From IMG/VR virus record IMGVR_UViG_3300032235_000491, positions 1 through 22,268 of that record: a DNA stretch of 22,268 bases; one strand, given 5' to 3'. The notes below the pieces were generated by a model. The model saw only the letters and a program-made list of their open reading frames with translations. It made no database searches and was not told the DNA's origin. The translations under genes were made by a program, and so were the position numbers. This DNA is from a virus. Numbering within the stretch: position 1 is the first letter of the stretch; every line of letters starts with the position of its first letter. Shown one piece after another: positions 6,478 through 9,987 of this stretch.

Positions 6478-6485
6478 TATTTATA
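6478..6485 (-). promoter_or_regulatory. T4-type late promoter, exact TATAAATA
   Basis: The minus strand carries the exact T4 late octamer TATAAATA, ending 25 bases before the ATG of the C39-like gene at 6452. T4 late promoters need only this element with gp55-type sigma. It lies next to the T-run of the peroxiredoxin terminator, so the auxiliary transcript ends where the late lysis-type transcript begins. Confidence 0.7.
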
Positions 6486-7534: not shown

Positions 7535-9052
7535 TCAGAACTTAAAGGTCGTCTGAACCAGAGCACCGAAGGTATCAAGACCATCGTTGCCAGTAGGATT
7601 GCTCAGATAGAACACAGCAGGAGTTACAGCGATGTTATCGGTAACTTGCATCTTGTAGTATGCCTCAAAAGCATAGTTGCCATCTTGAGCATTTACATCG
7701 TTCTGCTTGGTAACAAAGGTAGGTTGTCCAACTGCAAAACCAAGAGCATTACCCTTAGCGAGTACATCCTTCCAAACCAGACCAGTATACCAAGACTGAG
7801 AAATAGTATCACCACCTTCAGTATAACCAGAGTTATTATAACCCCAACCAGCAGAGATTGAAGGAATGATACCAGAGGTAGAAGGTTGCCAGTAACCAGC
7901 AAGAGAGAACGAGTTAGTCTGCCCACCAGTTGCACTATTAGGAAGTGCAGAAGTCAGAGTAGGAGTACCTTGAATACTTACACCATTGTTGGAATAAGTA
8001 TAGGCACCAGTCAGGTTCCAGTTCTTAGTGGTGTAAGCAAGTTGAGCAGTGGTAGAAGCAGCAGAGTTGCCGTTGAACATACCACCTTCAGCACTATCAC
8101 CCTTGTCTGCATCGCCAGCAACATAGGCACCACCAAGTGTCCAAGCACCTTTCTTAACCGAAGCACCGAAACCACCACCCAGAACTTTGCTATAGGCACC
8201 AGGAGCACCGTTGAACTGGAAGATATTCAGGATCTTATCAGCAGTGTAGACAGAAGGCCACACAGGCAGAATGTCATCCTGACGAACACGAGGACCAGCA
8301 GTAATGGTTACATCCTTACCAGCAGGGAACTTGTAGTACAAACGATTAATTGCAACTACATCACCACCATCAGCATTACCAAGATTTTCTTGGAAACCAG
8401 CATCAAGTTTGGTGAGAGGAGTAGGAGCAGCACCGAAACCACTGTCATCAAAGTTACCAGCACGAAGTTGAGTACGCAGCAGGTCTTTACCAGTGAAAGA
8501 GGTATCCAGGTTCAGTTTCACATCATAGTTGAAGGAAACTGCTTCACGAAGATTATCGTAATCATCTTTACGATCACCACCATAAGACAGACCACCCAGA
8601 ACCCACTTGGTTTCACCACGAAGTTTGGTGGTGGTGGAGAATTGAGTTGCTTCCAGAGCACTAACTTGTGCTTCCAGTTTATCAACACGACCACGAATTA
8701 CTGCAAGTTCAGCAGCAAATTCTTTTTGGAGGCGACTGAGTTCATCAGTCACTTCGGTTACACGATCAAGGCAAGCATTCAGAAGTGCTGCTGCCTCATA
8801 ACGGGTCATTGCCTTACCACCACCATAAGTGCCGTTAGGATAACCTGCTACACAACCATAACGATCTACAAGATTATTAAGTGCTTGATATGCCCAATCG
8901 GTAGGTTGCACATCAGAAAGTTGCGAAACACTTGTAACCTGCTCAGAAGAGTATTGATTGACTGCTGCAATATTAAGGTCTGCTGCATTCGCAACAGCAG
9001 GAGCAATCATACCAAGAGCAACGGGTGCAAGCATCAGTTGTTTGAGTTTCAT
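7535..9052 (-). CDS. Cyanobacterial-type outer-membrane porin (SLH plus OprB-like barrel)
   Basis: A 505-residue protein when started at the ATG at 9052, which gives a proper signal peptide (MKLKQLMLAPVALGMIAPAV, cleavage near residue 24); the frame also allows 9079. Residues about 45-95 form one SLH domain (VQPTDWAYQALNNLVDRYG, MTRYEAAALLNACLDRV) that anchors cyanobacterial porins to the cell wall. A coiled coil follows (about 98-135) and then a beta-barrel ending in Phe. The family forms channels for small solutes and ions. GC content and codon choice look more host-like than the neighbouring sugar genes, suggesting acquisition from the host. It has its own promoter, unusual leader and terminator. 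Confidence 0.92.
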   Translation of the reverse strand: MKLKQLMLAPVALGMIAPAVANAADLNIAAVNQYSSEQVTSVSQLSDVQPTDWAYQALNNLVDRYGCVAGYPNGTYGGGKAMTRYEAAALLNACLDRVTEVTDELSRLQKEFAAELAVIRGRVDKLEAQVSALEATQFSTTTKLRGETKWVLGGLSYGGDRKDDYDNLREAVSFNYDVKLNLDTSFTGKDLLRTQLRAGNFDDSGFGAAPTPLTKLDAGFQENLGNADGGDVVAINRLYYKFPAGKDVTITAGPRVRQDDILPVWPSVYTADKILNIFQFNGAPGAYSKVLGGGFGASVKKGAWTLGGAYVAGDADKGDSAEGGMFNGNSAASTTAQLAYTTKNWNLTGAYTYSNNGVSIQGTPTLTSALPNSATGGQTNSFSLAGYWQPSTSGIIPSISAGWGYNNSGYTEGGDTISQSWYTGLVWKDVLAKGNALGFAVGQPTFVTKQNDVNAQDGNYAFEAYYKMQVTDNIAVTPAVFYLSNPTGNDGLDTFGALVQTTFKF

Positions 9053-9083
9053 AAAAATGTTTTTAATACTAAACGACAATGTA

Positions 9084-9107
9084 AAGATTTACAACAATGT
9101 AAATCTT
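9084..9107 (-). repeat. Perfect 10-bp dyad in the porin leader
   Basis: AAGATTTACA (9084-9093) and TGTAAATCTT (9098-9107) form a perfect inverted repeat with a 4-base loop, about 32 bases before the porin ATG. It may be a protein-binding operator or a leader hairpin; no T-run makes it a terminator. Confidence 0.6.
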
Positions 9108-9109
9108 CG

Positions 9110-9139
9110 TTATTTAGGAGGTCTTAAGAAAATCTTAAG
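9110..9139 (-). promoter_or_regulatory. Pho-box-like 8-bp repeats before the porin
   Basis: On the minus strand three 8-mers occur at exact 11-base intervals: CTTAAGAT (9139-9132), CTTAAGAC (9128-9121) and CTAAATAA (9117-9110). The known cyanobacterial PhoB box is a set of 8-bp repeats close to YTTAAYYW separated by 3 bases. The first two fit at six or more positions; the third is weak. A further unit matching the consensus fully, CTTAACCA, lies at 9194-9187, followed after 3 bases by CTTAGTTG. Confidence 0.4.
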
Positions 9140-9148
9140 ATTAGGTAT

Positions 9149-9178
9149 ATACTACTACCATCCTGGGGTGTTTGTCAA
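9149..9178 (-). promoter_or_regulatory. Probable porin promoter
   Basis: TTGACA (9178-9173) is followed after 18 bases by TAGTAT (9154-9149), a 4/6 match to the -10 consensus. It begins right behind the GT25 stop codon and leaves a leader of about 90 bases carrying the Pho-like repeats and the dyad. Confidence 0.5.
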
Positions 9179-9189
9179 CTAAGATTTGG

Positions 9190-9987
9190 TTAAGGTTGTT
9201 GTGAAACTCCAGATGGATTTGTAATCCTACCAAGATATGGATCATAATCCATCAAATCATTGATGTCAAGGTTTGCACCAGCTTGCATCCAGAAATTTGA
9301 AATTCCATCATGACTAGATCTATGGAACGCATCCACATGATCTGGGTGAATAGAAGATCCCAATTCAATTTTATAAAGAAGTAAAGGAATAGAAAACGTG
9401 TTGCCTGAATTATAAATTAAATCATCTGCTACTGGACGTGGTTTAATTCCATTATCAAGTTTGTATTTGTCACCTCTAACATGATGACGAAGTAATTTTT
9501 CAGCATGGTGTCTGGTAATCATATAACATGCTGTAGAAAAATTATTTACAAATCTCCTATGAAGCTTTACATGAATATCACCAGTACAAATAATTGCAAG
9601 TTGAACAACATCCCAATCATAGGGAAGTCTTGCAACAAAATCATCCCAACGAAAATTCCAAAATCTCACTAAATCCAATTTACAATCATCTTCCATGATG
9701 ATTGCATATGGGCTATCAGATGTTTCCATCCAATGTTTAATTGCTTTTAAATGGGAAGTAATACACCCTATTTCACCAGAAGTCATGCTTTCTGGATATC
9801 TACCTTTAATGATATCACTTAGATCATCTTCACGCCCATCATATGCAGATATACGCTCATAATTTGTTATATCCCAATATTGAAATTGGGCTTCCATATA
9901 TTCTTTTCTATCTGGTTGACCGTCTAGATTCAAATAATAAACGGGACCAAAGTTTTTCAGTTTATCCATTGATTTATTTTTATCCAT
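9190..9987 (-). CDS. Glycosyltransferase family 25
   Basis: A 265-residue protein with GT25 signatures: VYYLNLDGQPDR at residues 16-27, GEIGCITSHLKAI at 71-83 and IIMEDDCKL at 97-104 (metal/nucleotide-binding acidic motif). GT25 enzymes include bacterial lipooligosaccharide beta-galactosyltransferases and collagen galactosyltransferases. It is the last gene of the sugar cluster, overlapping the GT4 gene by eight bases. A sugar acceptor on host LPS or on a phage protein is plausible; donor and acceptor cannot be read from the sequence. Confidence 0.8.
   Translation of the reverse strand: MDKNKSMDKLKNFGPVYYLNLDGQPDRKEYMEAQFQYWDITNYERISAYDGREDDLSDIIKGRYPESMTSGEIGCITSHLKAIKHWMETSDSPYAIIMEDDCKLDLVRFWNFRWDDFVARLPYDWDVVQLAIICTGDIHVKLHRRFVNNFSTACYMITRHHAEKLLRHHVRGDKYKLDNGIKPRPVADDLIYNSGNTFSIPLLLYKIELGSSIHPDHVDAFHRSSHDGISNFWMQAGANLDINDLMDYDPYLGRITNPSGVSQQP

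Follow-up and report, generated by a model that had tools for sequence, protein, structure and literature searches.

A putative Pho-type operator, a T4-type late-promoter motif and a hairpin leader ahead of a cyanophage porin gene

Results

The porin locus and its repeats

The DNA analyzed here, called the window throughout, is a virus record of 22,268 bases that matches T4-like cyanophages, including the Synechococcus phages DSL-LC03 and S-SRM01, the latter from a Singapore reservoir. Its minus strand encodes a porin (Pfam matches PF04966, 5e-23, and PF00395, 6.6e-8), and upstream of the porin lies a glycosyltransferase-25 gene whose stop codon falls inside the first upstream repeat. The features assigned to the interval ahead of the porin are collected in Table 1, with early transcription predicted to start near 9142 and late transcription near 9105. 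In S-SRM01 (L242, 3207-3868), tRNA genes for Arg, Asn, Thr and Gly stand directly ahead of the porin promoter, and tRNA-like ends occupy the same place in several relatives.

Table 1. Porin gene and control-region features in the window, in order of coordinate.
Feature	Position	Strand	Description
Porin gene	7535..9052	-	505 aa from ATG at 9052; SLH domain and OprB barrel
Conserved leader core GTCGTTTAG	9069..9077	-	Lacks a GTGTGAGG site
Leader hairpin	9084..9107	-	Perfect 10-base inverted repeat, arms 9107-9098 and 9093-9084, 4-base loop
Putative T4-type late-promoter -10, CTAAATA	9111..9117	-	Within CTAAATAA (9117-9110), third repeat of the preliminary description; from motif and relatives
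Module D, CTTAAGAT-TTT-CTTAAGAC	9121..9139	-	Repeats at 9139-9132 and 9128-9121; plus strand reads CTTAAGAA-AAT-CTTAAGAT, 9123-9141
Sigma-70-like early promoter	9149..9178	-	TTGACA 9178-9173, 18-base spacer, TAGTAT 9154-9149; 10/12 matches
Module A, Pho-type pair CTTAACCA-AAT-CTTAGTTG	9176..9194	-	Boxes at 9194-9187 and 9183-9176; from Su matrix and recurrence in relatives

A preliminary description of this DNA had pointed to three octamers at exact 11-base steps on the porin strand (the two repeats of module D, then CTC and CTAAATAA), to an upstream pair with the same step (module A), and to a distance of 48 bases between the two groups. These spacings hold, with the 48 bases counted between the final base of the first upstream box and the base at which the triple begins. 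Sullivan et al. (PMC3037559) applied CTTAN7CTTA to cyanophages as a Pho consensus; the window contains this pattern three times, and every copy falls in this region: the upstream pair, and the downstream pair read on each strand. Since 1.14 matches are expected in the window as a whole and at least three turn up in 10 of 100 shuffles, the count is unremarkable, and the notable part is the clustering in one promoter.

A scoring matrix derived from 24 published cyanobacterial Pho sites (72 octamers; Su et al., PMC1906773) separates the two groups. The upstream pair ranks first of 44,500 window positions at 12.5 bits, with the runner-up at 10.4, and falls inside the range of the published sites. 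The first two repeats of the triple rank 45th of 44,500 on the porin strand, the second and third 1,023rd of 44,500, and the whole triple 58th of 44,478. On the opposite strand the downstream pair comes 27th of 44,500. The upstream pair thus stands well clear of chance, the first two downstream repeats exceed it moderately, and the third contributes nothing as a Pho box. Judged from its sequence, CTAAATAA is the -10 element of a T4-type late promoter and not a Pho box. The headline reading of the triple as a single Pho box does not survive this result, its first two members being weak in the orientation proposed; the pair mentioned second in that description is the better Pho-box candidate.

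Module A and the early promoter

The second box of module A overlaps the -35 hexamer of the sigma-70-like promoter. Of 83 module A sites in relatives, 78 have a spacer of 17 or 18 bases between -35 and -10; from the second box to the -10, 78 of the 83 phage sites measure 20-21 bases (21 in the window). Module A thus agrees with Pho boxes both in its matrix match at 11-base steps and in its position relative to the -10; the matrix match of module D is moderate. Three tandem TTAA cores are not found at module A, which has two boxes, the second reading TTAG. No third box stands out in the profile of these sites, and the triple score there, 7.3, is unexceptional.

Recurrence was examined from protein and from DNA. 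A protein-based search of IMG/VR gave 80 phage porin loci, of which 74 together with the window yielded 75 upstream regions, 60 of them distinct and 59 of these with a sigma-70-like promoter. A module A pair scoring at least 8 lies exactly in the -35 register in 15 of the 59 distinct promoters, against 0.12% of all offsets, and the remaining 44 score -5.4 or lower. This bimodality indicates that module A is a discrete element, present or absent, and not a graded one. The phage upstream regions, like the host regions considered below, include close relatives, and counts from them are not independent events.

A blind scan of 2.9 million viral contigs with YTTAACCN4CTTARTTGACA returned 113 sites, 88 of them ahead of a porin; the motif joining module D to the late element, CTTAAGN6TTAAGN5CTAAATA, returned 68, with 62 ahead of a porin, and the two motifs co-occur at 34. 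Among the other module A sites, 12 have no readable frame behind them, mostly at contig ends, and 13 precede other reading frames. Nine of the latter stand before small secreted proteins (L161, L174, L181, L186, L189, L198, L200, L205 and L223), which matched phrog_417 in all three of the nine that were tested. The remaining four comprise one hypothetical gene found twice (L168 and L176), a site before tRNA genes and one that is unexplained; the hypothetical gene means that module A is not strictly confined to envelope genes. We rejected a generic cyanophage promoter as an explanation, given that both blind-found modules mostly precede porins and that most other readable genes behind module A encode small secreted proteins. 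The cultured phage S-SRM01 has neither module A nor module D at its porin; together with the 44 of 59 promoters without module A, this implies that the control is not general. As a side observation, proteins of the phrog_417 type resemble small outer-membrane barrels.

Module D and the late promoter

In the window, module D scores 6.4 bits on the porin strand and 7.0 on the opposite strand, and is weaker than its counterparts. Across 47 of 49 relatives, the window included and L123 and L131 dropped (related sequence with no porin behind it), scores of at least 8 bits were reached by 38 of 47 on the opposite strand and 11 of 47 on the porin strand, over a background of about 1% (1.2% for the opposite strand); most relatives give the better Pho-box score on the opposite strand. 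An exact 11-base step between TTAAG repeats is seen in 28 of 34 porin upstream regions identified through module A; for regions identified by protein the figure is 7 of 58. Other TTAAG spacings are almost absent from phage porin upstream regions. One subtype reads CTTAACCA-ATT-CTTAAAAG on the opposite strand, a near-match to module A.

The late element resembles known T4-type motifs: CTAAATA is reported as the late-promoter motif of phage Aeh1 (PMC1524935) and NATAAATA as that of S-PM2 (PMC2984593). ATAAATA replaces CTAAATA at the same site in relatives. An TATAAATA-like -10 thus lies just upstream of the porin, and the late genes of the group share the motif. In S-SRM01, 17 of 20 structural genes have HTAAATA in the 80 bases upstream of them, compared with 7 of 34 other genes; the classes were assigned by hand using the annotation, and the count leaves out the gene at position 22. 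The window's own endolysin gene is preceded by TATAAATA at 6485. Similar sequences, ACTAAATA, TATAAATA and TCTAAATA, stand shortly before genes at 282 (+), 3191 (-), 6485 (-) and 20267 (-), the last with TTGACA immediately after it. Late transcription from T4-type promoters relies on gp55 together with gp33 and gp45; no gp55 gene was found in the 22,268-base window.

The leader of the transcript

Aligned across 31 sequences, the leader hairpin pairs in 94.5% of cells, and 26 cells have changed on both sides; shuffles give 9.6 such cells and slid controls no more than 8. In the same 31 sequences, the count of pairs changed on both sides and the count of pair types are no higher than in shuffles, and Rfam gave nothing near a gathering score within 8900-9300. 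Downstream of the hairpin, the core GTC[CG]T[AT]TAG is found in 93 of 121 distinct phage leaders, a set that mixes loci found by protein and by motif, and in none of 32 host loci. Conversely, GTGTGAGG is absent from all 121 distinct phage leaders and lies at most 40 bases from the start in 41 of 45 located host porin genes (15 of 32 in a rougher count). We take GTGTGAGG to be complementary to the conserved motif of the small RNA Yfr1. It is probably both the Yfr1 target and the ribosome site of host porins, and porins are reported as Yfr1 targets in Prochlorococcus (PMC6778093).

A different hairpin, with variable stems and a nearly constant 11-base loop (GCC-NCAACTAYTYG-C type), occurs in 21 of 60 distinct phage porin upstream regions, for example in leaders L019, L022, L039 and L046 and at about 3935-3965 of L242. 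A similar loop sequence precedes small secreted proteins at L174 and L181.

Host promoters

Of 30 host pstS upstream regions, all from one family of host genomes, 21 carry a pair above the 95% null. Most of these pairs read CYTAACCN-N3-CTTAACCN and, like module A, consist mainly of two boxes, with a -10 that we read about 19-20 bases after the second. One part of the preliminary description is therefore borne out: the promoter of the phage porin carries a direct repeat of Pho type, its boxes 3 bases apart, which recurs in register in phage porin promoters and lies near the geometry of host pstS.

For host porins, 60 regions were reduced to 45 by removing 14 without a located start and L313, which has a false start. 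At 12 bits or more, 11 of the 45 carry reverse pairs (0.05 expected) and 5 carry forward pairs (0.10 expected). This enrichment, taken with the phage modules, indicates that paired TTAAC/TTAAG boxes belong to the porin promoters of both hosts and phages. The exact module A motif has 13 matches in the host genome collection, none of them picocyanobacterial by title, and a query with host PstS found no cyanophage pstS.

Discussion

Our analyses place a porin-linked, register-constrained Pho-type pair, fused to an early promoter, ahead of a cyanophage porin gene, with an 11-bp repeat, a late-promoter -10 and a hairpin leader alongside. We consider it somewhat probable that three elements are combined in this control region, namely an early promoter of host PhoB type, a late promoter of the phage and the hairpin leader, and propose the following model for its operation. 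Module A would act as a putative operator for the host PhoB/SphR-type regulator, its second box lying over the early -35. Under host phosphate shortage, phosphorylated PhoB may raise early transcription of the porin, and at other times the consensus -35 would supply a basal level. The late promoter CTAAATA would take over late in infection. Module D, between the predicted early start and the late promoter, could let the same regulator modulate either promoter, and the resulting porin transcript would carry the stem-loop leader. PhoB as the binder, the direction of regulation, the effect of phosphate, the part played by module D and the passage from early to late promoter are what we infer from sequence comparison.

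Several features of module A speak against a PhoB reading, namely the TTAG core of its second box, the consensus -35 and the lack of an evident third box. The same can be said of its absence from 44 of 59 phage porin promoters and from S-SRM01, of the host matches to its exact motif, none of which is picocyanobacterial by title, and of the lower scores of module D in the window than in its relatives. PhoB-dependent promoters usually do without a good -35. The main rival to PhoB is a different OmpR-family regulator of the host, governing porins in response to osmotic, redox or other signals, for which the 11-bp repeats would be the operator and the signal followed would be one other than phosphate. 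The strict 11-base spacing of the TTAAG repeats would suit any dimer of this family, and host porin promoters carry mainly reverse pairs, unlike host pstS promoters; the best described regulator for a TTAAC box with an 11-base step is nevertheless PhoB, and we judge the rival unlikely, if worth keeping in mind. RpaB was rejected. For its HLR1 site, which we take to be KTTACAWW-N2-KTTACAWW, no match with up to three mismatches lies at module A or D, the 33 matches across the window do not depart from chance (26.9 expected), and the nearest HLR1-like match, at 9078-9095 with two mismatches, overlaps the hairpin.

Module A might instead be mainly a strong constitutive early promoter, with CTTAACC as a strength element or an unregulated relic of a host Pho site. 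In favor of this, TTGACA is the -35 at every module A site of the scan, and the boxes are dispensed with by 44 of the 59 promoters of phage porins; yet the register of CTTAACC is exact despite a changing upstream neighbor (a tRNA-like end by a simple pattern in 11 of 20 scan cases), and a relic would decay, which makes this account improbable. Module D also has an alternative reading. Its CTTAAG repeats double as an inverted repeat (TCTTAAG-N5-CTTAAGA), longer in some relatives such as L094, which could fold into a hairpin where the early mRNA begins and stabilize that mRNA, in place of serving as an operator. Flank covariation gives no support to a hairpin kept by pairing, with 16 Watson-Crick pairs against 13.8 expected at -2/+2; the subtype TTTAAG-N5-GTTAAG loses the symmetry at -1/+1 yet holds the 11-base step, and a loop would tolerate other lengths, which are almost absent. 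We therefore think a role as RNA structure quite unlikely. That the repeats arose by chance in AT-rich DNA, a notion to which the base composition of the region and the shuffled windows lend some color, is hardly credible given 15 of 59 promoters in exact register and the share of blind matches ahead of porins (88/113 and 62/68); the register and spacing tests led us to reject it.

With PhoB retained as the preferred regulator, how does the locus compare with known systems? The SphR/PhoB boxes described for pstS, sphX and phoA (Su et al. 2007, PMC1906773) are likewise direct repeats, each 8 bp long and CTTAACCT-like, with gaps of 3 bases, and their second box lies at about an equal distance from the -10. 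Module A differs in having two boxes only, in the fusion of the second (CTTAGTTG) to a consensus TTGACA -35, and in serving a phage gene. A further parallel comes from a host porin. Slr1908 of Synechocystis presumably belongs to the same OprB/SLH family as the phage porin and, like it, has a PhoB site in its promoter, the phage site being putative. There, PhoB was reported to bind the promoter and phosphorus deficiency to induce the gene, and at the motif tested PhoB bound less well whichever of the three TTAA cores was mutated (PMC11126600); slr1908 thus differs from the phage porin as a host gene with three TTAA repeats, demonstrated PhoB binding and phosphate induction.

Phage genes under host PhoB control have been described as well, including pstS in P-SSM2 and, in S-PM2d, the genes S-PM2d004, DNA polymerase and uvsX (PMC10976474). 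The window shares with them a phage gene and a putative host Pho site; here the genes encode porins and outer-membrane proteins, a second, opposed repeat and a late promoter are added, and the site is a candidate from sequence. In the gel shifts reported for S-PM2d, PhoB bound two of the four tested promoters with predicted boxes, failed to bind the other two, and bound one for which no box had been predicted, so that predicted Pho boxes are unreliable (PMC10976474). The late element shares with the T4-type late promoters of S-PM2 and Aeh1 a -10 motif just upstream of the gene, and differs in that 11-bp TTAAG repeats and an early promoter precede it. Middle transcription in S-PM2 has been proposed to arise where early and late promoters overlap (PMC2984593). 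In the literature searched, which lay mostly outside subscription journals, we came across no description of a Pho-type site ahead of a cyanophage porin.

What would such an arrangement accomplish for the phage? We speculate, tentatively, that the OprB/SLH porin and the phrog_417 proteins form a small phage outer-membrane regulon, in which a phage-adapted PhoB operator would provide early pores under phosphate stress, the opposed operator and the late promoter would take over during replication, and a substituted leader without GTGTGAGG would let the phage mRNA escape host Yfr1, which controls host porins. Many waters are phosphorus-limited, and phage genomes draw on this element as they replicate. 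Should the phosphate sensor of the host indeed switch on a phage porin, nutrient status would set the outer-membrane permeability of the infected cell, and its reach would extend beyond uptake proteins such as PstS.
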